NCBI GenBank assembly: GCA_022822665.1
Contig: JAJEAR010000039.1
Span: forward strand, 62,001-126,000
DNA: 64,000 nucleotides
From: Alphaproteobacteria bacterium
Lineage (GTDB): Bacteria > Pseudomonadota > Alphaproteobacteria > Thalassobaculales > Thalassobaculaceae
Direction of reading: 5' to 3'
Under the pieces are notes generated by a model. That model had not been told where the DNA came from. It worked only from the letters and a program-made list of their open reading frames with translations, and ran no database searches. Numbering within the stretch: the first letter of the stretch is position 1; each line of letters begins with the position of its first letter. Both the position numbers and the translations under genes were made by a program. Shown piece by piece: positions 8,654 to 33,402 of the stretch.

Positions 8654-10309
8654 ATGAACACGGTCGACCCGATCACGGTATCGGTAATCCAGCACAGGCT
8701 CACGGCCATTGTGGCGGAGATGGGCGAGGCGATGCTGCGCACCTCGTACTCGCAGATCCTCAATTCCAGCCGTGACTTCTCCACCGCGATCTGCGATCGC
8801 TACAGCCGCCTGGTCGCCCAGGCCGAGCACATTCCGATCCATGTCGGCGCGCTCACCTTTGCGGCGGAGTCGGTCAGCGAGAGCTTTGCCGATACGGTCC
8901 GGGCCGGCGATGTCTACCTCCTGAACGACCCGTATTTCGGTGGCAGCCACCTGCCCGACGTCACCGCCTTCGTTCCGGTGTTTGCCGGCGACGAGCTGCT
9001 GTTCTGGACCATCAACCGGGCTCACCACAGCGATATCGGCGGCGCCACCCACGGCGCCTACAACCCGACGGCAACCTCGATCTTCCAGGAAGGGCTGAGA
9101 ATCCCGCCGCTCAAGCTGTACGACCGCGGAACGCTGCGCGAGGACCTGCTCGAGATGATCGCGGTCAACACCCGTCACCCGCGCGACTTCAAGGGTGACC
9201 TCGCAGCCCAGATCGGATCGGTGCACGGCGGCGAGCGCCGGCTGCATGCACTCGTCGCCGAGTTCGGCGCCGAGACCGTCAAGACCAGTGTCGAGACCAT
9301 CCTCGAGAGCGCCGAGCAGCAGGCCCGCGCAGTGATCGCGTCATGGCCGGACGGGGTCTACCACGGCAGCGCGACGCTCGACGACGACGGCCACGGGCGG
9401 TCCGACGTGACGATCCGCGCCACGGTAACCAAATCGGGCAGCGATCTCGAAGTCGACCTGACCGGGTCGGATCCCCAGTCGGCCGGGTTCGTCAACTCGT
9501 CCTATGCCAACATGCGTTCCGCCGTGGCCATGTCGATCGCCTATCTCATCGATCCGGAAACCCCGAAGAACCACGGCTCGTTCCTTCCGATTACCGTGAA
9601 GGCGCAACAGGGTACGATCGTGTGGTCGCACGACGGTGCGCCGGTCACCATGTGCACCAGCCACTGTTCGAACGAGATCTGCGAGGCGATCACCGTCGCG
9701 TTGTCGCAGGCGTGCCCGGAGCGCGCCATGGGCGGCTGGGGCCGCAGGCTCCGGGTCGCAATCCAGGGCGAGAACCCGAAGACCGGCAGCGGGTTCATCT
9801 GGCACATGTTCCATGCCCGTCCCGGCGCCGGTGGTTCGTCAGGCGGCGACGGATGGCATAACAGCGGCGAATGGCATTCGGCCGGGGGTCTGAAGTTCGG
9901 CAGCGTGGAACTGGCCGAGGCCCGGTTCCCGCTGTACTTCAGAAGGCACGAGTTCCGCACCGACTCGGCCGGTGACGGGGAGTACCGTGGCGGGGCGGGC
10001 GTCGAGCTCGAACTGGTGCTCGAGACCGAGGCCCGGTCGCTTGCAAACACCGCGGGTGACGGCAGCAGGTACGGATCCCGCGGTATGGCGGGCGGCACCG
10101 ACAGCAAGCCGCACCACTACTGGATCGAGCGCGCCGACGGGACGGTTCGCGAACTCTTGACCAAGGAAATCCTGGTCCCGGTCGACCCGGGCGACACCCT
10201 GATCGCCCACTCCGCAGGCGGCGGCGGTTGGGGCGATCCGGCGCGCAGGTCAACCGAGGCACGGGCCCGCGACGAACTGAACGGCATCGTCTCCCCGGGT
10301 CAGCACTGA
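8654..10309 (+). CDS. Hydantoinase B/oxoprolinase family protein
   Basis: The 551-residue protein matches the HyuB half of ATP-dependent hydantoinase, oxoprolinase and acetone-carboxylase-type enzymes. Seen: an N-terminal VSVIQHRLTAIVAEMGEAML with SRDFSTAICD, then LNDPYFGGSHLPDVTAFVP, a GGGGWGDPARR tail and GDGSRYGSRGMAGG. HyuB normally acts with HyuA, usually encoded next to it. Here it follows boxB by 29 bases with a GGAGG site, while the only HyuA is at 31312-33402 on the far side of the island. The substrate is unknown; cyclic imides, hydantoins or 5-oxoproline are typical. Confidence 0.9.
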   Translation: MNTVDPITVSVIQHRLTAIVAEMGEAMLRTSYSQILNSSRDFSTAICDRYSRLVAQAEHIPIHVGALTFAAESVSESFADTVRAGDVYLLNDPYFGGSHLPDVTAFVPVFAGDELLFWTINRAHHSDIGGATHGAYNPTATSIFQEGLRIPPLKLYDRGTLREDLLEMIAVNTRHPRDFKGDLAAQIGSVHGGERRLHALVAEFGAETVKTSVETILESAEQQARAVIASWPDGVYHGSATLDDDGHGRSDVTIRATVTKSGSDLEVDLTGSDPQSAGFVNSSYANMRSAVAMSIAYLIDPETPKNHGSFLPITVKAQQGTIVWSHDGAPVTMCTSHCSNEICEAITVALSQACPERAMGGWGRRLRVAIQGENPKTGSGFIWHMFHARPGAGGSSGGDGWHNSGEWHSAGGLKFGSVELAEARFPLYFRRHEFRTDSAGDGEYRGGAGVELELVLETEARSLANTAGDGSRYGSRGMAGGTDSKPHHYWIERADGTVRELLTKEILVPVDPGDTLIAHSAGGGGWGDPARRSTEARARDELNGIVSPGQH

Positions 10310-12611: not shown

Positions 12612-14273
12612 ATGGACTTCAACTACCCCAACGTACTTAACATGTTCCAACAGTACCTTGATCCAAAGAGAAACGAAAGCGCCTCATTCCTGATTTGGTA
12701 CCTCGAGAACTATTACCGCCTTGATCCCCAGGAGGCTGTGGATTCAGTTTGCGACCAGAGGGGAGACAAAGGTATTGATGGCATATACGTAAACGAAAGC
12801 ATGCAAACAATTGTCATATTCCAGTCTCGGCTATCACAAAAGAACACCGCTGTTGGCGATACAGGATTAAAGGAGTTTGCGGGTACATTACTTCAAGTAA
12901 AGGATGCACAAAGTGTCAACAAGTTAATTCAAAGCGCGGGCAACGCCGAAGTGGCACGGTTGCTAAAGCGGCTTGAAATAGCAGATAAGATTTCTGAGTA
13001 CGAGTTAAGAGGGGAATATCTCTCAAATATCGAGCTGGACGCTAATGGAGAGGCGTATGTAGATCAGTCTCCTCACATTGGATTCATTGGACGAGAGTTT
13101 CTGAAACAAACCTATATTTCCGACAAACGAGACAATCCAATTCATACTCCAATTACCTTTGATGTTTCCAGTTTTCAAACTACCGAGTACACAGTTGACG
13201 CTAACAGCAAAGCTTACATAGCACCAATTCGCGCACAAGATTTGATTAAACTGGATGGCATCGACAATCAATCTCTCTTTATTCACAATGTGCGAGGCCC
13301 ACTTGGACGCACAACCGTTAACAGAGGCATCACGAAGAGCGTCAGCGAACCTACACTTCATAAGAAGTTTCCATTATTTCATAATGGTATCACAGTGATC
13401 GCTGGAAGTATTGATGCCACCGAAGAAAGGATTACGATTTCTGACTACTTTGTCGTCAATGGTTGCCAAAGCATTACATCTTTGTACTTTAATCAGTCCA
13501 AACTAACCGACAATCTCTATGTGTTAGCTAAGTTTATTGAAGTCGACCCTACCTCATCTTTGGCCAAGCAAATTACTGAATTCTCTAACAATCAGAACGG
13601 GGTAAAGGCACGTGACTTCAAGGCAAATAGTTCCCCACAAATTCGATTGCAAAATGAGTTTCGCCGCGACTACATGGGAGTCTATGACTATGCAATCAAG
13701 CGTGGGGAAGAGGTGCATAGAGGCACGGTGATTTCTAATGAAGACGCTGGACTTTATCTGATGGCGTTCGATCTCATGGAACCGTGGGCCACACACAGAA
13801 AGTATCAGGTATTCGACGATAAACATTCCGAAATATTTGGACGACCCGCGGTTACGGCAGATAGAATCGTTATGTGCCAGGTTGTCCGGGAGTCCATTGA
13901 ATGCGTTCTGGGAGAAATAAACAATCAGTTACTGGCAAAGTACGTGTTGACGCGATATCTGTTAATGTATTTGGTGCGCCGCGTATTCGATTCCGAAGAA
14001 TTTGGCAAGAATATTGTTGCTAATCCCCGACATTTTGTTCGAGGTGTCGCTGAGAGAAGGAAGTTTAAAGCGTTGGTAGAAGGAACATTACGTGACATTG
14101 TCACTGACTTAAATTCCGAAGTTGATGAATACGGAGACGATTTTGATTATAGGGGGCGGTTGCGTGACGAACAGTGGGTCATTAAGCTTGGCAGGGAAGT
14201 CGTGGCTCTCCGGGAAAAGTTGGTAAGGAGGGGAAATATCCGAGCAATCAGCGCAGAGTGGCAATCTCTTTGA
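12612..14273 (+). CDS. AIPR-family (abortive infection phage resistance) protein
   Basis: The 553-residue protein has the conserved AIPR core: LFHNGITVIAGS (about 256-267), then SDYFVVNGCQSITSLYF (about 276-292) and ITEFSNNQNGVKARDF (about 318-333). The N-terminal region, with DQRGDKGIDGIYV and IVIFQSRLS, resembles a restriction-endonuclease-like D...(E/Q)xx fold. AIPR proteins are named from plasmid-borne abortive-infection genes and also occur as stand-alone defence or restriction-associated genes. The gene is clearly AT-richer than its surroundings and uses A/T-ending codons freely, so it was acquired from a different genome. It stands alone, with no methylase or partner gene. The reading frame is intact and it is the only apparently functional defence gene in this island. 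Confidence 0.85.
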   Translation: MDFNYPNVLNMFQQYLDPKRNESASFLIWYLENYYRLDPQEAVDSVCDQRGDKGIDGIYVNESMQTIVIFQSRLSQKNTAVGDTGLKEFAGTLLQVKDAQSVNKLIQSAGNAEVARLLKRLEIADKISEYELRGEYLSNIELDANGEAYVDQSPHIGFIGREFLKQTYISDKRDNPIHTPITFDVSSFQTTEYTVDANSKAYIAPIRAQDLIKLDGIDNQSLFIHNVRGPLGRTTVNRGITKSVSEPTLHKKFPLFHNGITVIAGSIDATEERITISDYFVVNGCQSITSLYFNQSKLTDNLYVLAKFIEVDPTSSLAKQITEFSNNQNGVKARDFKANSSPQIRLQNEFRRDYMGVYDYAIKRGEEVHRGTVISNEDAGLYLMAFDLMEPWATHRKYQVFDDKHSEIFGRPAVTADRIVMCQVVRESIECVLGEINNQLLAKYVLTRYLLMYLVRRVFDSEEFGKNIVANPRHFVRGVAERRKFKALVEGTLRDIVTDLNSEVDEYGDDFDYRGRLRDEQWVIKLGREVVALREKLVRRGNIRAISAEWQSL

Positions 14274-14891: not shown

Positions 14892-15280
14892 CTACTGGCG
14901 CGACGGTTCAACGGCGAATGTCCTGCTGATGTCGAAGACGTAGGTGTAAGCGCCGATTTTTTCCGGGCCAGCGGATACAAAGCCGGGAATAAGTCCGATT
15001 GCGGAGAGTGCGAGCCCGATCGGGTCGCCGGTCGAGAATGACCACGCACCGCCTGCGAGTCCAAGCGACCAGGCTGCTAGGTTCTTGCGGAGTTCGCGAC
15101 GGGAGGTCTGCTGGAGGTCGTGCGCGTGGTCGGAAATCTCCTGTCGTCGTTCAAGCAGCAGTGCTTCGCGGTCGGCGGGTACAGTAACTTCGGCAAGCTC
15201 GATCATGCATCGCCGGAGATTGCGCATGTAGGAACGGTACGAGTTGTGGTGCTCGTCGCGGAACTGCAACACCTCGTCGA
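14892..15280 (-). pseudogene. 3' part of the gene split by the transposon (C-terminal 128 codons)
   Basis: On the minus strand this reads (L)DEVLQFRDEHHNSYRSYMRN and ends with a Gly-rich hydrophobic stretch (GLALSAIGLIPGFVSAG) and AYTYVFDISRTF. The 5' part lies at 23138-23771. Deleting 15285-23137 plus one copy of the 4-bp repeat GCGG joins SPIP(L) to LDEVLQF in frame, giving a 340-codon gene. Without its 5' part the fragment is not expected to make a functional protein. The family is uncertain (see the 5' fragment). Confidence 0.85.
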
Positions 15281-15284
15281 GCGG
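15281..15284. repeat. Left copy of 4-bp target-site duplication (GCGG)
   Basis: GCGG directly precedes the left terminal repeat of the transposon, and GCGG at 23138-23141 directly follows the right one. Collapsing the two copies restores the interrupted gene in frame, which is better support than four bases alone would give. Confidence 0.8.
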
Positions 15285-15302
15285 TGAGCGTGGGCAGGCT
15301 TT
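15285..15302 (+). repeat. Left terminal inverted repeat of the transposon
   Basis: TGAGCGTGGGCAGGCTTT, matching the right end TGAGCGTGCTCAGGCTTT at 16 of 18 positions. A second motif, GGCTCGGATTGAGCGATGG at about 15325-15343, resembles one inside the right end. Confidence 0.85.
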
Positions 15303-15456
15303 GAGCGGGGATTTTGGGCTGATCGGCTCGGATTGAGCGATGGACTGTAGTGTGCGCCCCCCGGCGAGCTTGCAAAAGTTCGTCCGGGGGGCTTTGTCTC
15401 GGTGACGGCTAAACCACCGGACGAGTCCAATGTCGCACACGCTGTGCCGAAGCTCC

Positions 15457-16044
15457 ATGCTTTCGGATCCGCGCGTCTGGTCGTTCCTGACGCAGGTTGA
15501 CGCGGCCGAGGCGGAGACCTGCCGGAAGGCGGGCTGTCCGCGCTGCGGCGGCGTTCTTCACAGTGCCCGGTATCCGCGCAAACCGTACGGTCTTGCGGTC
15601 GCATTACGCGGCGATGTCTGGCGTTTCAGCTTCTGTTGCGCAGCGTGCCGGGGACGTGAGACGCCACCGTCGGTTCGCTTCTTCGGGCGGCGCTTCTATG
15701 TGGGCGCCCTGTTCCTTCTGGTGAGCGCGCTGGCCCTGGGTGGCGGTGTGCGCCTGCAGACGATCGCGCGGCGCTCGGGGATTCCGGTCCGGACGCTGAA
15801 GCGCTGGCGGCGGTGGTGGCAGGAGACGTTCCCGACGACGCCTGAGTGGCGGGTGAAGCGGGGTGCGCTGGCGCCGCCACCCGGGGAAGCGCCCCTGCGC
15901 TGGCTGTTGCGGACCATGCGTGGCCACACCCTGCGCGCCCGTCTGTTGCGCAGCCTGGTGTGGCTGATGCCCTGGACGGGATCGTGCGCTCTCGGCGATG
16001 GGCGGACGATGTCCGCAGAAAGCGTTTCTGTCATGACCGCATAG
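15457..16044 (+). CDS. Transposon-associated zinc-ribbon/helix-turn-helix protein
   Basis: The first gene inside the transposon encodes about 195 residues from the ATG at 15457 (15430 is a possible earlier start). A zinc-ribbon is visible as C-x2-C in GCPRCGG and a second pair in FCCAACRG, followed by a helix-turn-helix-like stretch IARRSGIPVRTLKRWRRWW. It lies 44 bases before the transposase gene on the same strand. Small zinc-binding HTH proteins often help transposases choose targets or bind ends (TniQ/TnsD-like roles), but a specific role here is inference. I do not recognise a named family. Confidence 0.6.
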   Translation: MLSDPRVWSFLTQVDAAEAETCRKAGCPRCGGVLHSARYPRKPYGLAVALRGDVWRFSFCCAACRGRETPPSVRFFGRRFYVGALFLLVSALALGGGVRLQTIARRSGIPVRTLKRWRRWWQETFPTTPEWRVKRGALAPPPGEAPLRWLLRTMRGHTLRARLLRSLVWLMPWTGSCALGDGRTMSAESVSVMTA

Positions 16045-16088
16045 GGCGTTCTACACCGGCCTCCCGGTGACGGAAGGGAGATGCCGGA

Positions 16089-16643
16089 ATGGACAGGGAC
16101 GACCCGGTCGCCAGGCGCGAGAAGTGGGCACGGCTCCGGTTTGCGGTGGTGGGACCGCTGCTGGCGTCGCCGCCGCCGTCAGGCCAGTTGCGGGCTGCGC
16201 TTGAGCGGTTGTCGCATCTGGAGTGGGAGCATCCGTCGGGCGCCGGGCGGGTGCGCTTCTCGGTGTCCACGATCGAGCGCTGGTACTACCAGGCGCGGGC
16301 GGAGGATCGCGATCCGGTCAAGGCGCTGCGTCAGAAGCCGCGGTCCGACATCGGCCGCGAACGGGCGATGTCGCCGGCGCTGATCGAGGCGCTGCGCGAG
16401 CAGTACCGGGCGCATCCGTCGTGGTCGGCGCAGCTGCATTACGACAACCTGCGGGTGCGGGCCGAGGGCGATCCAGCGCTCGGTCCGATGCCCTCCTACG
16501 CGACGCTCACCCGGGCGATGCGGGCGCGCGGCCTGGTGCGCAAGCGCCGCCGCAAGTGGTTCGAGGGCGAGGAGATGCCCGCGGCCGACACCCGCGAGGT
16601 CCTGAGCTACGAGGTCTCGCGCAGTCACGGGCTCTGGCACGCC
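16089..16643 (+). pseudogene. 5' half of the DDE transposase, split by the RIT element
   Basis: These 185 codons start MDRDDPVARREKWARL and carry the N-terminal DNA-binding region, with a HTH-like FSVSTIERWYYQAR. They run to the conserved block before the catalytic core, SYEVSRSHGLWHA. The next codon in the 3' half at 20092 is Asp, in DFHHGKRRVLTSSGEWVTP, which intact relatives have in direct continuation. The open frame runs 39 bases into the RIT end before a stop. Rejoined, the protein would have 489 residues, normal for this transposase type. Confidence 0.88.
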
Positions 16644-16674
16644 TTATGTGGCGGTCGTCGTTATGTGGCGGTGA
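16644..16674 (+). repeat. Left inverted repeat of the RIT element
   Basis: 31 bases identical in reverse complement to 20029-20059, extending to 37 with one mismatch. Each repeat contains two direct copies of TTATGTGGCGG, 17 bases apart. Another copy in reverse orientation (CCGCCACATAA) sits inside the left end at 16715-16725. These look like multiple recombinase arm or core sites. Confidence 0.92.
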
Positions 16675-16782
16675 TCCCGTAGACCCGCAGTAAGAATGGA
16701 ATCACGCCACCTGGCCGCCACATAACCTAGAACACGGATTCCCGTTCAGTGATCGTGCTTTCCCGCTCAAGGAGGCACGCTC

Positions 16783-18036
16783 ATGTTCGAGAAACTGTTC
16801 GAGCGCCCGCACACGATTGAGAAGTACCGGTCGGCAGCGCTCTACGAGGACCGGCTCAGGTATCTGGTCCATGTGGCCGACGGTGGCGCCACACCCGACA
16901 CGCTCTACAAGATTGCCTATCATCAGCTGAACCTGCTTCGTCTCCTCGACCTGCGGGAAGGCGAAACGGTGACGCTGCCCCAGCTCACCACCGTGATCGA
17001 CGCGCGGTTCGATCGCGCGGGGCGTACCGGTGACCAGCGGACCCGGTCGAGGTCGTCAAGCGAGTTCCTTGGATACGCTCTTCGATGGTTGCGTTTTCTG
17101 GGTCGCGTCGAGGAGCCCGCGGTCCCCCGCCACCCCTACGCCGCCGAGATCGAAGCGTTCACCGCCTGGATGCGCACCGAGCGAGGCCTGTCTGAAAAAA
17201 CGATCTACTTCTGTTGTCAGGCGGTTGCCGACTTCCTGAACAGGCTGGCGGGACGGAACGTCCCGCTGGCGGTGGTCGAAATGGCCGATGTCGACGAGTT
17301 CGTTGCCGCGAAGACGGCCAGCGGATCGTGCAAGCGGGCAACGATCAACAACTACGCTCGCTATGTTCGGGCCTTTCTCGCCTTTGGCGAAGATCGGGGC
17401 TTGTGCCGATCCGGCCTGGCCGGAGGCATCATTCCTTCGAGGATCTACAAGGATGAGCCGATCCCGGCAGGAGTGTCACGCGATGACGTCCGGCGCCTGC
17501 TGGCCGACACCGAGGGAGAGCGACCGGGTGACAAGCGGGATCGCGCGATCCTGATGCTCCTCGTCGGATACGGCTTGCGGGCCGGAGAGGTGTGCGACCT
17601 GCATCTGGACGACCTCGACTGGGAACAGGAGACGATACGCGTCCGCCGGAGCAAACCGGGGCGAACCGACGTCTATCCGCTGTCCCGTGGCGTCGGACAG
17701 GCGATCCTGCGCTACCTGGTCGATGTCCGCCCTCAGCGGCCTGAACGCTCCCTGTTCCTGACCCTTCGCGCTCCGAGACGACCGTTACGCACGAGTGCTG
17801 TCTCGGAGATCGTCCGACGGCGGCTGGGTCGTCTCGGTCTCAAGACGAAGCGGCGTGGGGCGCATGGGCTCAGGCACGCCGCCGCCCAGCGTCTCCTCGA
17901 CCATGGCCTGTCGATGAAGGCCGTCGGCGACTACCTCGGGCATCGCCGCATCGCATCCACTTCGGTGTACGCAAAGGTCCATCTCGAGGCCCTGCGAGAA
18001 GTCGTCGCCGACTTCGATCTGGAGGGTCTGGCATGA
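16783..18036 (+). CDS. RIT element tyrosine recombinase A
   Basis: The 417-residue protein has a SAM-like N-terminal DNA-binding domain (about 120-230) and a catalytic domain with GLRAGEV (Arg I), HGLRHAAAQRLL (HxxR), GHRRI and the nucleophilic Tyr in TSVYAKVH near the C-terminus. It would cut and rejoin DNA through a 3'-phosphotyrosine bond. It is the first of three recombinases read as one unit: its TGA overlaps the ATG of the next gene by four bases. A good AAGGAGG site precedes the ATG. All active-site residues are present. Confidence 0.93.
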   Translation: MFEKLFERPHTIEKYRSAALYEDRLRYLVHVADGGATPDTLYKIAYHQLNLLRLLDLREGETVTLPQLTTVIDARFDRAGRTGDQRTRSRSSSEFLGYALRWLRFLGRVEEPAVPRHPYAAEIEAFTAWMRTERGLSEKTIYFCCQAVADFLNRLAGRNVPLAVVEMADVDEFVAAKTASGSCKRATINNYARYVRAFLAFGEDRGLCRSGLAGGIIPSRIYKDEPIPAGVSRDDVRRLLADTEGERPGDKRDRAILMLLVGYGLRAGEVCDLHLDDLDWEQETIRVRRSKPGRTDVYPLSRGVGQAILRYLVDVRPQRPERSLFLTLRAPRRPLRTSAVSEIVRRRLGRLGLKTKRRGAHGLRHAAAQRLLDHGLSMKAVGDYLGHRRIASTSVYAKVHLEALREVVADFDLEGLA

Positions 18037-18980
18037 CAAGCCTGCGGGAAGCGATCGACGGCTACGTCGCATGGCAGCGCAGTCATGGCGCGACGTTCGT
18101 CTCCGGCGCCTACCTCCTGAACAGCTTCTGCAGGAGCTTCGACCAGGACACCGAGTGCGACGCGGTCACCGAGGCCCAGGTGAGGGTATTCCTCGCCGGC
18201 ACCGGACCGCTGACCCGTTCCCGTTCGACCCGCTACGGCGCCCTCGCGGGGTTCTACCGCTACGCGATCAGCCGACGATATGCGTCGCGCTCGCCGTTGC
18301 CGGACAACGAACCGCCGCGGCCCCGGTCGCCGCCGTCCTACATCTATTCCCGTGACGAGGTGAAGCGGATCTTCGGCGTCGTCGATGAATGCCGGCGCGA
18401 TGCGCGCAAGCTCGACGCCGATACCTTTCGCACGCTCATCCTGCTTCTGTACGGAACCGGACTGCGCCGCGGGGAGGCGTGCCGCCTGACTGTGGAGGAT
18501 GTCGACCTGGCCGAGGCCGTGCTGACGATCCGCGACACCAAGTTCTACAAGAGCCGGCTTGTGCCGGTCGGCCCGCGGCTTGCCGATGTGCTGCGAACCT
18601 ACGCGTCACGCCGTGCCGAACGCCCGATGAAGGCAGGCATCACCTCAACTTTCCTGGCAAATCGGGATGGATCGCCGGTCAACGGGTCGTCGGTGCATCG
18701 AGCCTTTAGCGAACTGCTTCGAGCGGCGGACATCCATGCCAGGAACGACGGACGCGGGGCGCCCTGCGTGCATTCGCTGCGCCATTCATTCGCCGTTCAC
18801 CGGCTGACCTCATGGTACCGGCTGGGTGCCGATGTGCAGCGGCTGCTGCCGGTCCTCGCCACCTTTCTCGGGCATCGCGACCTGAATGGCACCCAGGTCT
18901 ATCTGTCGATGACCCCCGAGCTGCTGCACGAAGCCTCGCTGCGCTTCGAACACTACGTCCATGGAGAAACCGATGAATGA
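18033..18980 (+). CDS. RIT element tyrosine recombinase B
   Basis: 315 residues, middle gene of the trio. Catalytic residues are visible in GTGLRRGEACRL (Arg), HSLRHSFAVHRL (HxxR), LGHRDLNGTQVYLSM (His and Tyr). The N-terminal region resembles a core-binding domain, with RSRSTRYGALAGFYRYAI. Translation is probably coupled at both ends: ATGA overlap with gene A, and a 20-base overlap with gene C. In RIT elements the three recombinases are distinct subfamilies that keep the same order, which implies that all three are needed. Confidence 0.92.
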   Translation: MTSLREAIDGYVAWQRSHGATFVSGAYLLNSFCRSFDQDTECDAVTEAQVRVFLAGTGPLTRSRSTRYGALAGFYRYAISRRYASRSPLPDNEPPRPRSPPSYIYSRDEVKRIFGVVDECRRDARKLDADTFRTLILLLYGTGLRRGEACRLTVEDVDLAEAVLTIRDTKFYKSRLVPVGPRLADVLRTYASRRAERPMKAGITSTFLANRDGSPVNGSSVHRAFSELLRAADIHARNDGRGAPCVHSLRHSFAVHRLTSWYRLGADVQRLLPVLATFLGHRDLNGTQVYLSMTPELLHEASLRFEHYVHGETDE

Positions 18981-19968
18981 TGTCGACACACTGGGCCCCT
19001 GGCTTCGCCGCTTCCTCACCGAACACATAGTCAGCGAGCGCAATCTGGCGATCAACACACGCAAGAGCTACCGCGACACCTTCTCGCTCCTGCTACCCTT
19101 CGTCAGCGCCGGGGTCCGCAAGCCGGCGGACCGGGTGGTCGTGTCCGATCTCACGTCCACGCGGATCCTGCAGTTCCTCGCCCATCTCGAGGAAAGCAGG
19201 GGATGCTCCGTGCAAACCCGAAACCAGCGCCTGGCGGCACTCCGCTCGTTCGCCAGCTTCGTGGGCAGCCGTGAGCCGACGCTGGTGGAATGGTGCGGCA
19301 CCCTTCGTGCCATCCCGTTGAAGAAGGCGGCGACGAAACCGATCGGTTGGCTGACCAAACCCGAAATCCATGAGATCCTCGCGGTCCCCGATCGCGCGAC
19401 ACTGCAAGGCCGGACCGAATACGCCCTGTTACTATTCTTGTACAACTCGGGCGCGCGAGTGTCGGAAGCCACGCAGTTGCGGATGGCAGACATGCAGATC
19501 GGCCGCACGGACGGCGGCCATGCGCTCGTTACCCTGAACGGCAAGGGCGGAAAGATCCGTCAGTGCCCGCTGTGGCCACGCACCGAACGCGTCCTCGCCG
19601 AACTGGCAAGGGGGCGGACAGGCGGCGATGCGGTGTTCCTCAGCCGGTACCGCAAACCCTACACCCGGTTCGGCGTGTACCATCTGGTGGCGCGCAGCGC
19701 GGCCGGCGTGCCGTCTCTGGAAGGCCGCAAGATCACGCCCCACGTGATTCGGCATTCCACGGCCTGTCATCTGCTTCAGGCCGGTGTCGACATCAACACC
19801 ATTCGCGCCTGGCTCGGCCATGTCAGCCTCGAAACCACAAACATCTACGCCGAAATCGATCTGGAAATGAAAGCCAGGGCGCTGGCGATCTGCGACGCGG
19901 CGGAGGCTGGCCCGCACCGCCCGTGGAAGGAGGACAACGGACTCATGGCCTTCCTCAAGGCACTGTGA
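18961..19968 (+). CDS. RIT element tyrosine recombinase C
   Basis: 335 residues, third gene of the trio. It is XerC/D-like in style, with an N-terminal SAM-like region (TRNQRLAALRSFASFV) and catalytic motifs NSGARVSEATQL, HVIRHSTACHLL, GHVSLETTNIYAEID. All expected residues (R, HxxR, H, Y) are intact. It overlaps gene B by 20 bases, and about 60 bases remain between its stop and the right inverted repeat. Confidence 0.93.
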   Translation: MEKPMNDVDTLGPWLRRFLTEHIVSERNLAINTRKSYRDTFSLLLPFVSAGVRKPADRVVVSDLTSTRILQFLAHLEESRGCSVQTRNQRLAALRSFASFVGSREPTLVEWCGTLRAIPLKKAATKPIGWLTKPEIHEILAVPDRATLQGRTEYALLLFLYNSGARVSEATQLRMADMQIGRTDGGHALVTLNGKGGKIRQCPLWPRTERVLAELARGRTGGDAVFLSRYRKPYTRFGVYHLVARSAAGVPSLEGRKITPHVIRHSTACHLLQAGVDINTIRAWLGHVSLETTNIYAEIDLEMKARALAICDAAEAGPHRPWKEDNGLMAFLKAL

Positions 19969-20028
19969 CGTTCCAGATTATGTTGTGGTCATGTGGTGGG
20001 ATCCCTTGTTAACAACGGGATCACGGGT

Positions 20029-20059
20029 TCACCGCCACATAACGACGACCGCCACATAA
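20029..20059 (-). repeat. Right inverted repeat of the RIT element
   Basis: Reverse complement of 16644-16674 over 31 bases. A degenerate TTATGTTGTGG-like copy lies just inside at about 19978-19988, so both ends seem to carry an array of related sites. Confidence 0.92.
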
Positions 20060-20091
20060 GGCGTGAGATGTTATGTAGAACATCTCACGCC
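20060..20091. repeat. Perfect 13-bp-arm hairpin at the right RIT junction
   Basis: GGCGTGAGATGTT, a 6-base loop ATGTAG, then AACATCTCACGCC. The inner 26 bases are absent from the reconstructed transposase. The first six bases GGCGTG are the reverse complement of the CACGCC found on the left flank and at the hairpin end. It may be an attachment-site relic or sequence brought from a previous site. Confidence 0.8.
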
Positions 20092-21006
20092 GATTTTCAT
20101 CATGGCAAGCGCCGGGTGCTGACATCGTCGGGCGAATGGGTGACGCCGATCCTTCTGGGGTTCCTCGACGATACCACCCGGCTCGGCTGTCACCTGCAGT
20201 GGTATCTCGCCGAGACCGCGGAGGTCTTCGTCCACGGGCTGTCCCAGGCCTTCATGAAGCGCGGCCTGCCGCGCGCCCTGATGAGCGACAACGGCTCGGC
20301 GATGACGGCGGGCGAGGTGGAGGAGGGACTGCACCGGCTCGGCATCGTCCACTCCCGGACCCGGCCGGCTCATCCCCATCAGAACGGCAAGATGGAGGTC
20401 TTGTGGGCCTCGGTCGAGGGTCGGCTGATGGCGATGCTCGACGGCGTCGAGCCGCTGACCCTCAAGATGCTCAACGACACCACCATCGCCTGGCTCGAAC
20501 AGGACTATCACCGCCGGGTGCACCGGGAACTCGGCACCACGCCGCACGCACGACTGGCCGAGAGCGCCGACGCATCCAGGCCGTGTCCCGGCTCCGACGA
20601 GCTCAAGGCGGCGTTCCGGATCACCAGAAAGCGGACGCTGAGGCGCTCGGACGGAACCGTCTCGGTCGAGGGCATCCGCTACCAGGTGCCGCGGCCATGG
20701 CGCCACCTCGCCACGCCCCGGGTCCGGTACGCGCGCTGGGACCCGGCCAGCATCGATCTCGTCGACGGGCAGACCGGCGAGCGGCTGTGCGCCCTCTACC
20801 CCGTCGACAAGCGCGGCAACGCCGATAGCGCGCGCCGTCCCACGGCTGTCGACACCGCAGATGGCAGCGGCGACGGCAGTGGTGAAGACGGCCTGCCGCC
20901 GCTGCTGCGGACCATGCTCGACGCCCAGGCCGCGACCGGCCTGCCGCCGGCCTGGCTGCCACACACATCCACTCCCGACACCGACGATCAGGACGAGAAC
21001 TCATGA
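20092..21006 (+). pseudogene. 3' half of the DDE transposase (catalytic domain)
   Basis: 304 codons begin with the first catalytic Asp (DFHHGKRRVLT). They include the second Asp in MSDNGSAMT and the Glu in HPHQNGKMEVLWASVEG, so a full DDE triad of the rve/integrase fold is present, followed by a C-terminal beta-rich domain (GTVSVEGIRYQVPRPW). Upstream open frame from 19993 belongs to the RIT end and is not the true start. The stop overlaps the ATG of the ATPase gene (ATGA). Without its 5' half the protein lacks the end-binding domain. Confidence 0.88.
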
Positions 21007-21836
21007 ACCGAGAGCTGCTCACCTTCTACGGGCTAAAGTGGAACCCGTTCGCCCCCGACCTGCCGGTCGACAGCCTGATGGCGACCGCCGCCGTCGACAG
21101 CTTCTGCCTCAGGATCGAACGCCATCTCGTGCGCCACGGCGGCTTCGCGCTGATCGCCGGCGAGCCCGGAACCGGAAAGAGCGTCGCACTGCGTCTGCTC
21201 GCCCACCGGCTCGGACGCTGCGACGGGCTCAGGGTCGCCGCCATCACCCACCCGTCCTCGAGACTGTCCGACTTCTACCGCGAGATCGGCGAGTTGTTCG
21301 GCGTCGACCTGATGTACAACAACCGCTGGGCCAGCTTCAAAAACCTGCGCCGGCGCTGGCTCGCCCACCTCGACGACACCCGCATGCGCCCGGTGCTGCT
21401 CATCGACGAGGCCCAGGAACTGCTGCCCTCGGTGTTCTCCGAGATCCGCCTGCTGGCGTCGACCGACTTCGACTCGCGCGCCATCCTCTCGGTGATCTTC
21501 GCCGGTGACAACCGCCTGCTCGACCGCCTCCGCCAGCCCGACCTGCAGCCCATCGCCTCGCGCATCCGACAGCGCCTGCTGATGACCCGGGCCGAGGACG
21601 GTGAACTGACCGGCCTGCTCGACCATCTGCTCGAAGAGGCCGGCAATCCGGCGCTGATGACCGCCGGGCTCAGGGACACCCTCGTCGCCCATGCCGCGGG
21701 CAATCCCAGGGCGCTTACCGTCATGGCCGATGCCGTGCTCGCAGCCGGCGCCGAGAAGGACCGCGAGGTGCTCGACGAGAAGCTCTTCATCGAGACCCTC
21801 GGCGAGGCACCATCATCCAGGCGGGCCCGGCGATGA
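21003..21836 (+). CDS. Transposition ATPase (ExeA/TniB-like AAA protein)
   Basis: The 277-residue protein starts MNRELLTFYGLKWNPFAPDL, the N-terminus typical of ExeA-like transposon ATPases. It has Walker A GEPGTGKSVALRLLA (about 54-68), Walker B VLLIDEAQELLP (about 131-142) and a C-terminal arginine-rich lid region. MuB, TnsC and TniB are functional analogues: they bind DNA in an ATP-dependent way, choose targets and activate the DDE transposase. The gene overlaps the transposase by four bases and the next gene by four bases, so the three are co-translated. Confidence 0.88.
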   Translation: MNRELLTFYGLKWNPFAPDLPVDSLMATAAVDSFCLRIERHLVRHGGFALIAGEPGTGKSVALRLLAHRLGRCDGLRVAAITHPSSRLSDFYREIGELFGVDLMYNNRWASFKNLRRRWLAHLDDTRMRPVLLIDEAQELLPSVFSEIRLLASTDFDSRAILSVIFAGDNRLLDRLRQPDLQPIASRIRQRLLMTRAEDGELTGLLDHLLEEAGNPALMTAGLRDTLVAHAAGNPRALTVMADAVLAAGAEKDREVLDEKLFIETLGEAPSSRRARR

Positions 21837-22855
21837 CCGGCTTCCCGACACGGGCTCCGGCCGAGCTCGAGGACCGACCGAGGGAGCGACAGTGGATGGT
21901 CGAGGCGCTGTGGAGCGAGCAGGGCGTGGGCATCATCGGCGGCGAGCCCAAGTGTGGCAAATCCTTCCTCGCGCTCGACCTCGCCGTCTCGGTGGCCGCA
22001 GGGGTGCCGTGCCTGCGCCACTTCCCCACCGCCACAAGCGGCACCGTGCTGCTGTTCGCCGCCGTGGACGCCGGCCACATCGTGCGCGACCGCCTCCAGG
22101 GCATCGCACGTGCCGCCGGGGCCGCGTTCGAGGCCCTCGACATCGCCGTCATCGATATCCCGGTTTTGCGCCTCGACCACCGCACCGATCGCCAGCGCCT
22201 CGGCGAGACCGTGCAGCGCATCGCGCCTCGCCTCGTCGTCCTCGACCCCCTGGTGCGCCTGCACAGCGTCGACGAGAACGCCGTCGCCGAAGTTGCCCCC
22301 ATCCTCGGCTTCCTGCGAGACCTGCAGCGCCGCTTCGAGACCGCCGTGATACTCGTCCACCATGCCAGAAAGAGCGGCGCCACGCGACCGGGCCAGGCGC
22401 TCAGAGGATCGTCCGAACTGCACGCCTGGGGGGACAGCAATCTGTACCTGCGTCGCCGCGAGCGCCAGATCCTCATGACCGTCGAGCATCGCGCCGCTCC
22501 CGGCCTCAACGATATACAGATCGAACTCGCCGACGACGCAGACGGCCCGGCGCTGCGTCTCCGCCACGCGGAAGCCGCCCAGGATGCGCCCCGGCCCGAC
22601 ACACCGGAACAGCGCATCCTCCAGGCCCTCGCCAAGGCCAATGCCCCGCTCTCCCAGCGCCAGATCCGCGAGCGCGCCGCGACCCGGCCGAAGACCGTCG
22701 CCGAGGCGCTGGGCACGCTCGTGCGCGAAAACCGCGTCGAGCGTGCCTCTGAAGGCGGATACCGCCTCGCCGCCGGCCCGACAGAGACCGACGACGTCAA
22801 CGACAGAAGCCCCGGGTACCCGTTACCGAAAACCGTTACCGCCCCCAACCCCTAG
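21833..22855 (+). CDS. RecA-fold AAA_25/RepA-like ATPase carried by the transposon
   Basis: 340 residues. Walker A is GGEPKCGKSFLALDLA (about 35-50), Walker B is LVVLDPLVRLHSVDE, and a sensor-like VILVHHARK is followed by ALRGSSELHAWGDSNLYLRR. This resembles RepA-type hexameric helicases and the AAA_25 family used in plasmid and phage replication. A winged-helix-like C-terminus (LSQRQIRERAATRPKTVAEAL) follows. Its place as last gene of a transposon operon suggests a replication or target-handling role, which is inference; classic Tn7 or Tn5053 sets do not include such a protein. Confidence 0.8.
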   Translation: MTGFPTRAPAELEDRPRERQWMVEALWSEQGVGIIGGEPKCGKSFLALDLAVSVAAGVPCLRHFPTATSGTVLLFAAVDAGHIVRDRLQGIARAAGAAFEALDIAVIDIPVLRLDHRTDRQRLGETVQRIAPRLVVLDPLVRLHSVDENAVAEVAPILGFLRDLQRRFETAVILVHHARKSGATRPGQALRGSSELHAWGDSNLYLRRRERQILMTVEHRAAPGLNDIQIELADDADGPALRLRHAEAAQDAPRPDTPEQRILQALAKANAPLSQRQIRERAATRPKTVAEALGTLVRENRVERASEGGYRLAAGPTETDDVNDRSPGYPLPKTVTAPNP

Positions 22856-22883
22856 ACAGACAGGGTAACGGTAACGGGTAACA
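22817..22883. repeat. GTTACC/GGTAAC iterated inverted repeats at the end of the transposon operon
   Basis: CCCGTTACCG and CCGTTACCG near the gene end face GGTAACGGTAACGGGTAAC just after it. The two sides can pair as a long imperfect hairpin across the stop codon. It could be a terminator or a replication-like iteron site. No T-run follows. Confidence 0.5.
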
Positions 22884-23119
22884 CCCACCGCCAGACGTCA
22901 TCGCCACATTGTGTCGAGCGATCGGCACATGGCCGAAAGCTCTGCTTACGGCCATGGCGGCTCTTCGTCGGATGGACGGCGACGGGTCACCCGAAGGGCC
23001 GGAGCGAAGCGGAGGAGCGGCGAAGCCGCTTGACGCGTCGACGACCGTCCGGCACCCCGGCACCATCAGTCTGAGCCGACAATCGAAACCCTCAAATAAT
23101 CCGAGCACCCTGCCATCAG

Positions 23120-23137
23120 AAAGCCTGAGCACGCTCA
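23120..23137 (-). repeat. Right terminal inverted repeat of the transposon
   Basis: Reads TGAGCGTGCTCAGGCTTT inwards on the minus strand. Inside it, motifs such as CATCAGTCTGAGCCGAC (about 23065-23081 on +) resemble inner motifs of the left end. The region 22884-23119 has no gene. Confidence 0.85.
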
Positions 23138-23771
23138 GCGGGATCGGTGAAAGATCAAAGGCCACCGGCTCGAGATCCAGTTGGATGACATGCTGCTTGG
23201 AAGGCATGGCCTGCATCGACAGGGTTTGAATGAGGTCGGACACGGCGGGGCCATGGTTGGTCGTGGGATGGATCGTCATTCCGCGGTGTTGTCCGATGGT
23301 GCGGGAGAGCTGTCCAAGAATGACAAGTATTGTGGTGCGAACCGTGGGATGCAGGGGAACGGAGACGCCGTCTTCGCTCTGCTTCGCGAGTCCTTTCGCC
23401 TGCAGCTCTTCGACGAGAAAGGTCGCGAGGTCCACATCGGCGCCGTAACCTATTCGCGATTGTGAGAGCTCGGCGAAATATTTCGTTTCCGGGAGGTCGT
23501 CGAAGGAGCCGTTCGTGAGCATGTCGACAATGATGTCGCCGAGGCGCGTGGTGGTTTCCTGATCAATCCAGTTCTTGGGTTCGAGGACGTGGAGTAGACC
23601 GCGTTCTTCGAGGGGTGCGGCGAGGCTAGGATCGGCGGCGACGTGACGCCCATACATGTAGTCGGGGAGTAGGGTCGCTACGTCGTCGAAGAACAGCAAC
23701 AGGGATTTGATCCATCCGCTTTCTCGCAAACTCCAATATGGCGCTGGATAAAGGTAGGCTGTGTCGCTCAC
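23138..23771 (-). pseudogene. 5' part of the gene split by the transposon (N-terminal 211 codons)
   Basis: GTG at 23771 with GGAGG seven bases upstream starts VSDTAYLYPAPYWSLRESGW. The frame is intact to SPIP and then runs into the transposon end. The N-terminus (a tyrosine-rich YLYPAPYWSLRESGWIKSL and FDDVATLLPDYM) recalls DUF6236-type proteins of unknown function, but this is a weak resemblance from memory. Joined to 14892-15280 it makes a 340-residue protein. Its neighbours are mobile and defence remnants, so a defence role is possible but unproven. Confidence 0.85.
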
Positions 23772-24120
23772 TTGCTGGCCTCCGCCTGGAGATTGGAGAG
23801 AGTAGCGCAGAGTTCGATCTCGCATCATACCTGAACGAAGCATCCGGCGGCACACCATCCCCTGGCAATCCTTGTCGCTAGCGGACCGTGGCTATACCTT
23901 TGCCTGCGAGGCGTAAGTTTGTCGTGCCCTCTTTCCGAGGCCCGCGTTTCGGCGTGGGCCTGCGTACGTCTTGAAGCCGTCGGTTACGAAGCGCTCGCTG
24001 AAGTGATGCAGGAAACCCAAGACGGATAGTGAGAGACCAAGCACCCATCGGCCCGTCCTCGAGACCGATTGCCGCCTCGCGGATTCTCCAGACGCCCCCT
24101 TGAAGGCTACCGACCCAGCC

Positions 24121-30901: not shown

Positions 30902-31311
30902 CGGCGCCGCCCTACGAGAGCTCGCCGAACGAACGGCAGTGCAGCTGCGGGTCCCGGCCGCCGGGCCGGGGAAGAACCGCTGTCCCGGAACCGAACCCTG
31001 CCGGCGGATCGGGTGAATATGGCGCGATCGCAGTGCGGCGTGCTGCATCCCCGACGAAACGCCTCCGCGGAGTCCCTGTTCCGTATCCCCGTCGAAACCC
31101 GCCGCCGCAACCGGTGACGGCCGCCTGACGCGCTGCTAGAGTGCCGCCGGGTATCGTGGCCGGTCGCAACGGCAGCGCGGTGCAGTTCGTCCCCGGGCAT
31201 CCGGCAGTCGGCCATCAGGAGCCGGCAGGCGCCGGCCGCCTCCCGAACGAACCCGCTTGCGTCATGCGTGCGTCCGCCCGGGACCCTGTCTTCTCTCGAC
31301 CGGTCGGACCC
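30902..31311. other. Gene-free stretch upstream of hyuA
   Basis: 410 bp. The open frame preceding hyuA extends to 31141 but lacks protein-like character. No clear regulatory site. Confidence 0.4.
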
Positions 31312-33402
31312 ATGGCGCACTCTACCGAACACACGAACAACGAACCGATCCCCGATGGCGGGTGGCGCATTGGCGTCGACGTCGGCGGCACCTTCACCGA
31401 CGTCGTCGCGGTCGCCGATGACGGAACGCTGACCTTCACCAAGGCGCCGAGTACGCCCGAGGACCCGTCGATCGGCGTCATCGACGCCATTGACCGGCTT
31501 GCCGCGGAACTCGACACCACTACGGCCGCTCTGCTCGCCCGGACCGGGCGGATCGTACACGGCACCACCGTCGCCACCAACGCGCTGCTCGAACGCACCG
31601 GCGCGCGTGTCGGGCTGTTGACCACGGCCGGGCACCGCGACGTGCTCGAGATGCGCGAGGGACTGAAGGACGAGCGCTACAACCTGCGCCTTGCCGCGCC
31701 GGACCCGTTGGTCCCCCGTCACCTGCGGACCGGCGTGACCGAGCGGCTGCGCCCCGACGGCAGCGTGCGCACCCCCCTTGATCCGGCGTCACTGGCCACG
31801 GCCCTGGAGACGCTGAAGGATGGCGGCGTGACATCGATCGCGGTGTGCTTCCTGCATTCCTACCGCAACGCCGTTCACGAGCAGCAGGCCCGCGAGGCGA
31901 TTGAGGCCGCCATGCCCGGCGTACCGGTCTCGCTGTCCAGCGACGTGTTCCCGGAGATCAAGGAGTACGAACGGGTCTCCACAACGGTGGTCAATGCCTA
32001 CGTGCGCCCGATTGTCGAGAGCTACCTCGAACGGCTCGGAGCCCGGCTGACGCGAGCCGGTTACCACGGGCCGGTCCTGGTCATCCTCTCCCACGGCGGG
32101 GTTGCCCCGATCGAGGAGACGATCCGCCTTGCGGCCGCCTCGGTACTGTCAGGTCCGGCCGGCGGGGTGGCGGGCAGCCGACACGGCGCGTCGCTGATCG
32201 GTGCGGGCAACCTCATTCCATTCGACATGGGCGGAACCAGTACCGACATCTCGATGATTGTCGACGGCGAACCCGCGCTGTCCGCCACCCGCGGCATCGC
32301 CGGGTTCAGGATCGCGCTGCAGTCGCTCGATATCGTGAGCATCGCCTCGGGCGGGGGCTCGATCGCCCGGGTCGACAGCGGCGGCATCCTGAGTGTCGGC
32401 CCGGAAAGCGCCGGCGCCATGCCCGGCCCCGCGTGCTACGGCCAGGGCGGAACCGAGGTCACGGTAACCGATGCCAGCGTGGTGCTCGGGTTCCTCGACC
32501 CGGCCAACTTCCTGGGCGGGCGCGCCCGGCTCGACAGGGCCGCCGCCGAAACCGTGCTCGACCAGCTTGCGCAGCGGCTCGCGGTGTCCCGGGCCGAGGC
32601 CGCGGAAGGCGTACACCGGGTGATCAACACCCAGATGGCGGAAGGCATCCGCCTGGTCTCGGTGCGCCGCGGCGTTGACCCTCGCCGCTTCGCCCTGCTG
32701 TCATTCGGCGGTGCAGCCGGCATTCACATCACCGACATCGCCCGCCAGATCGACGTCCCCCGCGTGGTGGTCCCGCGGGCGGCCGCCGTGCTCTCGGCCT
32801 GGGGAATGCTGGCAACCGACCTGCGATTCGAGATCAGCCGCACCCATGTGGGCGACACCCGCATGCTGGAGGCTGACGCCATCCGCGACCTGTACGCCTC
32901 CATGGAGCAGGAGGGGCGCTCCCGGCTCGCGCGGGTGTTCGACGGCGAGGTCGCAGTCCGCCGGTCGGCGGACATGCGCTACGGCGAGCAGATCTTCGAG
33001 ATCGATGTCCCGCTCGACGGGGTGGACTTCGCGGGCGCGGGGCTGATCGAGGACATCACGCAGCGCTTTCACCGGCGTCACGAGGACCTATTCACCTACA
33101 GCCTGCCCGACCAGGAATCGGTTTTGGTCAACGCGCGGCTGGCGGCAATCGGCCGGCTCCCGATGCTGCCGCAGGAACCGGAGGTCCGCGACCGGGAGGC
33201 GGCCGAGCCGCGGACCATGCGGCGAGCCTACCTCGGCGGCTGGCAGCACCTCCCCGTCTTCGACCTCGAGACCCTCTGTCCCGGCCAGGTGATCACGGGT
33301 CCGGCGATCATCGAATCCGCCACCACCACCGTGGTGCTGCGTGCCGGCGACAGCGCGGTCCCGAGTGGCGCGCTCTGGCTCGACATCGCGATCGGGAAGT
33401 GA
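31312..33402 (+). CDS. Hydantoinase A/oxoprolinase family protein
   Basis: About 696 residues from ATG 31312. ASKHA-fold signatures are present: GVDVGGTFTDVVAV at the start (phosphate 1), GTTVATNALLERTGARVGLL, then SGPAGGVAGS and PFDMGGTSTDISMI (phosphate 2) and RFALLSFGGAAGIHI. HyuA is the ATP-using half of hydantoinase/oxoprolinase and acetone-carboxylase-like enzymes and normally works with HyuB. No HyuB follows here; the only one in the window is at 8654-10309. Its length suits a stand-alone HyuA subunit rather than the fused eukaryotic-type oxoprolinase. Confidence 0.92.
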   Translation: MAHSTEHTNNEPIPDGGWRIGVDVGGTFTDVVAVADDGTLTFTKAPSTPEDPSIGVIDAIDRLAAELDTTTAALLARTGRIVHGTTVATNALLERTGARVGLLTTAGHRDVLEMREGLKDERYNLRLAAPDPLVPRHLRTGVTERLRPDGSVRTPLDPASLATALETLKDGGVTSIAVCFLHSYRNAVHEQQAREAIEAAMPGVPVSLSSDVFPEIKEYERVSTTVVNAYVRPIVESYLERLGARLTRAGYHGPVLVILSHGGVAPIEETIRLAAASVLSGPAGGVAGSRHGASLIGAGNLIPFDMGGTSTDISMIVDGEPALSATRGIAGFRIALQSLDIVSIASGGGSIARVDSGGILSVGPESAGAMPGPACYGQGGTEVTVTDASVVLGFLDPANFLGGRARLDRAAAETVLDQLAQRLAVSRAEAAEGVHRVINTQMAEGIRLVSVRRGVDPRRFALLSFGGAAGIHITDIARQIDVPRVVVPRAAAVLSAWGMLATDLRFEISRTHVGDTRMLEADAIRDLYASMEQEGRSRLARVFDGEVAVRRSADMRYGEQIFEIDVPLDGVDFAGAGLIEDITQRFHRRHEDLFTYSLPDQESVLVNARLAAIGRLPMLPQEPEVRDREAAEPRTMRRAYLGGWQHLPVFDLETLCPGQVITGPAIIESATTTVVLRAGDSAVPSGALWLDIAIGK

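Follow-up and report, generated by a model that had tools for sequence, protein, structure and literature searches.

We describe a composite mobile element in a 64,000-nucleotide stretch of alphaproteobacterial DNA (GenBank assembly GCA_022822665.1, contig JAJEAR010000039.1, positions 62,001 to 126,000), which is referred to as the window. The insertion spans positions 15285-23137 (7853 bp) and has TGAGCGTGnnCAGGCTTT ends that match at 16/18 positions. Very probably it is a Tn6049-family transposon that entered a host gene with a 4-bp GCGG duplication, later received a recombinase-in-trio (RIT) element, and carries an AAA_25 ATPase gene as a core gene. The host gene and the outer transposon consist of the following features.

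14892-15284, minus strand: C-terminal part of the host gene, where the alignment with a Rhodococcus homologue carries on gapless at the junction
15281-15284, unstranded: left copy of the target-site duplication GCGG, read in the sequence
15285-15302, plus strand: left terminal inverted repeat TGAGCGTGGGCAGGCTTT, with the same terminus in relatives
15430-16044, plus strand: orf1, small protein that combines a helix-turn-helix (Pfam HTH_23) with two invariant, zinc-binding-like CxxC pairs (43% identity to the Tn6049 orf)
16089-16643, plus strand: DDE transposase, N-terminal part (residues 1-185), IS481-like
20092-21006, plus strand: DDE transposase, catalytic part (residues 186-489; Pfam rve, NCBIfam IS481; D186, D251, E287)
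21003-21836, plus strand: MuB/TnsC-like AAA+ ATPase of 277 amino acids, called 'gspA' in Tn6049 (Pfam AAA_22; 52% identity to Tn6049)
21833-22855, plus strand: RepA-helicase-like ATPase of 340 amino acids with a C-terminal winged helix (Pfam AAA_25)
23120-23137, minus strand: right terminal inverted repeat, reverse complement TGAGCGTGCTCAGGCTTT, with the same terminus in relatives
23138-23141, unstranded: right copy of the target-site duplication GCGG, read in the sequence
23142-23771, minus strand: N-terminal part of the host gene, with a GTG start at 23771 and open once the insert is removed

The terminal repeats, the GCGG duplication and a rejoined host gene of 340 codons had been described in a first-pass annotation read by hand from the sequence, and all were re-derived here as described. 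When position 23141 is joined to 15284 with one GCGG retained, a single frame (630 + 393 nt) runs from the GTG at 23771 via DLSPIPLDEVLQF to the stop at 14892. In the GC-rich window, the ends and the 4-bp duplication are by themselves of no significance, as about one such case is expected by chance: 240 inverted 18-bp pairs with at least 16/18 identity and a spacing of 0.5-15 kb were counted, and two of them had equal 4-bp flanks, which is about chance level. The insertion is accepted because homology settles the matter beyond ends and flanks, through an intact host homologue and through termini shared with relatives. The first-pass annotation had called for a genome with the joined gene intact, and one exists: the plasmid collection contains an intact counterpart on NZ_CP070612.1, a plasmid of Rhodococcus koreensis, where it is annotated as a hypothetical protein and shares 45% identity with the joined protein over 329 residues. 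The N-terminal part of the host protein matches R. koreensis WP_206017510.1 from residue 16 of the latter onward. Across the junction, DLSPIPLDEVLQFR of the joined protein aligns without a gap to DLSSVPLDEVLDFR of the Rhodococcus protein, from which it follows that the host gene is uninterrupted elsewhere and that the excision is codon-exact. Searches of 98 relatives and of 385 genomes belonging to the same class yielded no uninterrupted homologue. That 15285-23137 is no insertion at all, with ends, duplication and frame arising by chance in GC-rich DNA, would fit the expectation of about one such pair of ends and flanks per window; against the gapless homologue and the dozens of homologous elements that share the same termini, we give this explanation virtually no credence.

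If the final A of the right end is assigned to the target, the duplication becomes 5 bp long (AGCGG); this reading was rejected because the relatives have TG...CA ends, which point to 4 bp. Both host halves open into the transposon ends (22836-23858 and 14892-15458, both on the minus strand), where automatic annotation yields two false genes of 340 and 188 amino acids. PADLOC gave no defence match for the interrupted host gene.

The relatives that share these termini are 80 elements found by scanning a genome collection with the transposase. In all of them the transposase match is one uninterrupted piece over almost the whole query, and most have orf1 upstream and the ATPase gene downstream. 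Their termini are TGAGCRTGnnCACG-like, of the form TG...CA, and are flanked by duplications of 4 bp (L057, L106, L155), 5 bp (L028, L074, L082, L109) or 6 bp (for example L060, L062, L081), so that the check proposed earlier for the ends and duplications of other copies came out in favour of the insertion: homologous elements end at the same terminus, with duplications of 4-6 bp. The closest clade (70-76% identity) comprises metagenome-assembled Alphaproteobacteria, Gammaproteobacteria, Gemmatimonadota and Acidobacteriota. Three contigs of this clade (L031, L034, L035) start or stop exactly at TGAGCG, and L073 likewise breaks off at the terminus; duplications are scarce in the branch that carries AAA_25 because many relatives sit on contigs cut at their ends. 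Viral contigs yielded no relatives of the transposase or of the RIT recombinase RitC, and the 18-bp end pattern had 34 matches in them, all single. A phylum-wide sample contained few transposase relatives and no other RitA of this kind.

Once the transposase is rejoined across the RIT element, the gene order is orf1, IS481-like DDE transposase and GspA-like ATPase, all in one direction. Orf1 has invariant cysteines at C36, C39, C70 and C73, and its structure model is poor, with a predicted local distance difference test (pLDDT) score of 66. The rejoined transposase of 489 amino acids is 50% identical to that of Tn6049, with D186, D251 and E287 invariant, and its catalytic half matches the IS481 model NF033577 (NCBIfam) at 6e-22, under the curated cut-off of 224 bits. 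The gene of the first ATPase overlaps the transposase gene, and its product matches the profiles of MuB (8xvb, 4e-5) and ShTnsC (7m99, 5e-3), which fits a partner of the transposase. About 20 plasmid copies, mostly from Cupriavidus and Paraburkholderia, match the catalytic half at about 50%; the Cupriavidus copies correspond to Tn6049, and the published ends were recovered in them. Tn6049 was first described in Cupriavidus metallidurans CH34 (PMC2864759); its published repeat is 12 bp long, and its duplication, GCAG, 4 bp (PMC4739549). Without the RIT element, the outer element measures 4405 bp (7853 - 3448), similar to its relatives L030 and L031 (4358-4359 bp). Judged by sequence comparison, it is a Tn6049-family transposon with a RepA-like ATPase in the fourth slot, and it is filed as a sister branch and not as Tn6049 itself because the fourth open reading frame (ORF) of about 70 amino acids is replaced by AAA_25. 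A second copy of the ATPase gene was not found in the genome, so the element is present as a single copy.

The first-pass annotation had also stated that a DDE transposase together with two different ATPases is not the gene set of Tn7 or Tn5053, and this is borne out: the ATPases are MuB/TnsC-like and RepA-helicase-like, and Pfam and NCBIfam revealed no TniQ, TnsA or resolvase among the genes of the element. A diverged Tn7-like or Tn5053-like transposon with unrecognised targeting and resolution genes would share the DDE transposase, the TnsC/MuB-like ATPase and the TG...CA ends; such an identity is very improbable given the absence of those three genes, duplications of 4-6 bp in place of a fixed 5 bp, ends in this branch that begin with TGAGC and not TGT, and a best curated transposase model that is IS481. 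The annotation had recognised neither that the gene set, but for one extra gene, is that of the known Tn6049 family, nor that a RIT element splits the DDE transposase. The features of this second element are as follows.

16644-20091, plus strand: RIT element of 3448 bp that separates transposase codons A185 and D186, identified by its recombinase trio, repeats and CACGCC junctions
16638-16733, plus strand: left arm of the RIT inverted repeat, the first 6 bp of which (CACGCC) are the target
16783-18036, plus strand: ritA, tyrosine recombinase of 417 amino acids, catalytic R/HxxRH/Y present
18033-18980, plus strand: ritB, tyrosine recombinase of 315 amino acids, catalytic R/HxxRH/Y present
18961-19968, plus strand: ritC, tyrosine recombinase of 335 amino acids, catalytic R/HxxRH/Y present
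19970-20065, minus strand: right arm of the RIT inverted repeat
20060-20091, unstranded: perfect 13-6-13 palindrome GGCGTGAGATGTT-ATGTAG-AACATCTCACGCC at the right end of the RIT element, the last 6 bp of which repeat the target CACGCC

The RIT element makes up 44% of the whole insertion. Its three genes overlap by 4 and 20 bp, and its terminal inverted repeat is perfect over 37 bp (the outer 6 bp being CACGCC) and 80% identical over 96 bp. An overlapping trio with the catalytic motif, a terminal repeat of about 28-34 bp, a palindrome and a length of about 3.5 kb are the marks of a RIT element, and published RITs have the same kind of terminal repeat and overlapping palindrome (PMC3414803). 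In shape, the palindrome at 20060-20091 resembles the core site of a tyrosine recombinase. RitC is 66-68% identical to RIT recombinases of alphaproteobacterial plasmids. The closest RITs, on plasmids of Aminobacter, Mesorhizobium, Sagittula, Rhodobacter and Haematobacter (L149-L153), adjoin genes with a toprim domain, of which another copy often lies near by; this neighbourhood is possibly a preferred plasmid site of RITs.

CACGCC is present at both junctions of the RIT element and represents its target sequence, because the closest relatives (L030, L031, L033, L034) hold TGG-CACGCC-GA uninterrupted. Removal of the RIT element and one CACGCC restores a transposase of 489 amino acids without a stop. 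These relatives with an intact target suggest that the RIT element inserted into the transposase gene, directly upstream of the D186 codon, which encodes the first catalytic aspartate, and the transposon copy is probably inactive because the transposase is split at this point. Nesting of this kind is not new: Van Houdt 2012 (PMC3414803) reported that in Acidithiobacillus ferrooxidans a transposon related to Tn6049 has RITs in its transposase gene. The base-exact site found here may be new. The reverse order, in which the transposon arrived with the RIT element already in its transposase and the composite was moved in trans by another copy, could draw on A. ferrooxidans, which has such composites at one shared location. 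It would need trans-activation in a genome where no second copy of the ATPase gene, and with it no second element, was found, and we judge it quite improbable.

The fourth gene of the outer element distinguishes it from Tn6049. The AAA_25 gene overlaps that of the first ATPase by 4 bp (ATGA), and an overlap is present in most relatives too. The protein matches the profile of the RSF1010 helicase RepA at 9e-15, and its structure model (pLDDT 80) has the RecA-like fold of RepA with Walker motifs (Walker A, GGEPKCGKS) and superimposes on RSF1010 RepA with a Z score of 21 and 3.7 A over 225 residues. In the transposase tree AAA_25 occurs in 26/84 members, and a branch with 95/94 support separates all of these from a side on which 0/48 members have it and where an ORF of about 60-80 amino acids typically fills the fourth slot. 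A hidden Markov model profile of this small ORF, which also misses the 71-amino-acid ORF of Tn6049, matched 38/61 elements without AAA_25 and 0/26 with it. Distances between AAA_25 proteins follow those between transposases (Mantel r 0.785, reached by 0/2000 permutations), and comparison with the closest relatives gives a ratio of nonsynonymous to synonymous substitution rates (dN/dS) of about 0.2-0.4, similar to that of the other element genes. The branch spans at least Pseudomonadota, Acidobacteriota, Gemmatimonadota, Myxococcota, Verrucomicrobiota and Planctomycetota. The fourth slot may hold yet another, third type of gene, an ORF of about 107-118 amino acids (VQRVLxLYRDTPGTSGRVRPADRRLA...), as seen at L048:3640-4000, L056:4009-4366 and L065:3119-3440.

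From these sequence comparisons we read AAA_25 as a stable core gene of one old, major branch of the family. It might instead be passenger cargo, for example a regulator or a defence protein riding in transposons, as the fourth gene varies within the family (the ORF of about 70 amino acids, AAA_25, or the ORF of about 118 amino acids) and the winged helix could signal a regulator. This we regard as somewhat unlikely, since AAA_25 is confined to one side of the transposase tree, diverges together with the transposase under purifying selection, is joined to the ATPase gene by the 4-bp translational overlap in most copies, excludes and is excluded by the 70-amino-acid ORF, and has no defence-family match in PADLOC. 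The AAA_25 branch appears to be undescribed; the supplementary table of PMC3414803 may list an AAA_25-bearing member by protein cluster number.

Taken as a core gene, AAA_25 most likely acts after strand transfer, in replication or fork processing, or else in regulation, as its modelled fold suggests; it might, for example, load or run a helicase at the transposition fork. A more far-reaching proposal, which we put forward tentatively and consider unlikely, is that this Tn6049-like branch couples its own replicative-helicase-like core ATPase to a Mu-like transposase/ATPase pair, so that in replicative transposition the self-encoded helicase takes over from the restart machinery of the host.

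In the history that we propose, the DDE transposase would have inserted the outer transposon of about 4.4 kb into the host gene with a 4-bp stagger, producing the GCGG duplication and destroying the gene. By family resemblance, the MuB/TnsC-like ATPase would pick or activate target DNA for the transposase, and the zinc-finger/helix-turn-helix protein of orf1 would probably assist in end or DNA binding. The RIT element would then have been inserted by its own three tyrosine recombinases at TGG-CACGCC|GAT, leaving CACGCC at each junction and separating the DNA-binding half of the transposase from its catalytic half. The copy is probably immobile unless transposase is supplied from elsewhere or the RIT element excises precisely.

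Several observations weigh against this reading. The sole homologue of the host protein is distant (45%) and belongs to another phylum, and the empty site was not seen in a near relative. Within the AAA_25 branch, a clear duplication is found in the window copy only. The order of transposon first and RIT element second is parsimony and not proof. Ten elements on the AAA_25 side do not have AAA_25, some of them being cut by contig ends and others having a different small gene, and the role of AAA_25 is deduced from fold and gene order.

Beside the interrupted host gene lies a gene on the plus strand (12612-14273) for an AIPR/AbiU-like protein (PADLOC AbiU, 5e-33; Pfam AIPR, 6e-31), possibly an abortive-infection defence gene on the strength of these matches. 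The genes of hydantoinase B (8654-10309, plus strand) and hydantoinase A (31141-33402, plus strand), usually neighbours, flank the region about 21 kb apart.

This analysis verifies by homology an insertion that had been read by hand, and defines to the base the ends and the lengths of the duplications in a transposon family that is widespread among environmental bacteria but has hardly been studied biochemically. A RIT insertion is likewise placed to the base: it lies at a recognisable target core of 6 bp, just before the catalytic aspartate codon of the transposase that it disables. The family itself and the nesting of RITs are known; what appears new is an old branch of the Tn6049 family with its own replication-helicase-like gene. 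The deep split of the family by its fourth gene (RepA-like ATPase or protein of about 70 amino acids) makes the role of the second ATPase in DDE transposition directly testable.

Among known systems, Tn6049 (C. metallidurans CH34, also Pseudomonas aeruginosa pHS87a) has the same order of zinc/helix-turn-helix orf, IS481-like transposase and 'gspA', and its ends, TGTGCATAAGCAGCTTT, are similar to TGAGCGTGGGCAGGCTTT of the window element; it differs in that it is 3.5 kb long and uninterrupted, with an ORF of 71 amino acids in place of the RepA-like ATPase of 340. The Tn6049-related transposon of A. ferrooxidans likewise carries a RIT trio within its transposase gene (PMC3414803). Other RITs (ritABC of Cupriavidus CH34 and the plasmid copies L149-L153) share the overlapping recombinase trio, the terminal repeats with palindrome and the length of about 3.5 kb, whereas the nearest of them lie beside plasmid toprim genes and not in a transposase, and have different end sequences. 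The combination of a DDE transposase with an AAA+ partner ATPase is also found in Mu (MuA/MuB), Tn7 and CAST elements (TnsB/TnsC) and IS21 (IstA/IstB), from which the window element is set apart by its IS481-like transposase, duplications of 4-6 bp, lack of TniQ and TnsA, and added RepA-like ATPase. Members of the IS481 family have a single transposase gene and no partner ATPase; the window element shares their type of catalytic domain and is distinguished by its partner ATPase gene. The AAA_25 protein, finally, has the ATPase domain fold of the hexameric helicase RepA of RSF1010, from which it differs by an added C-terminal winged helix, by its Walker A motif and by being encoded in a transposon operon.

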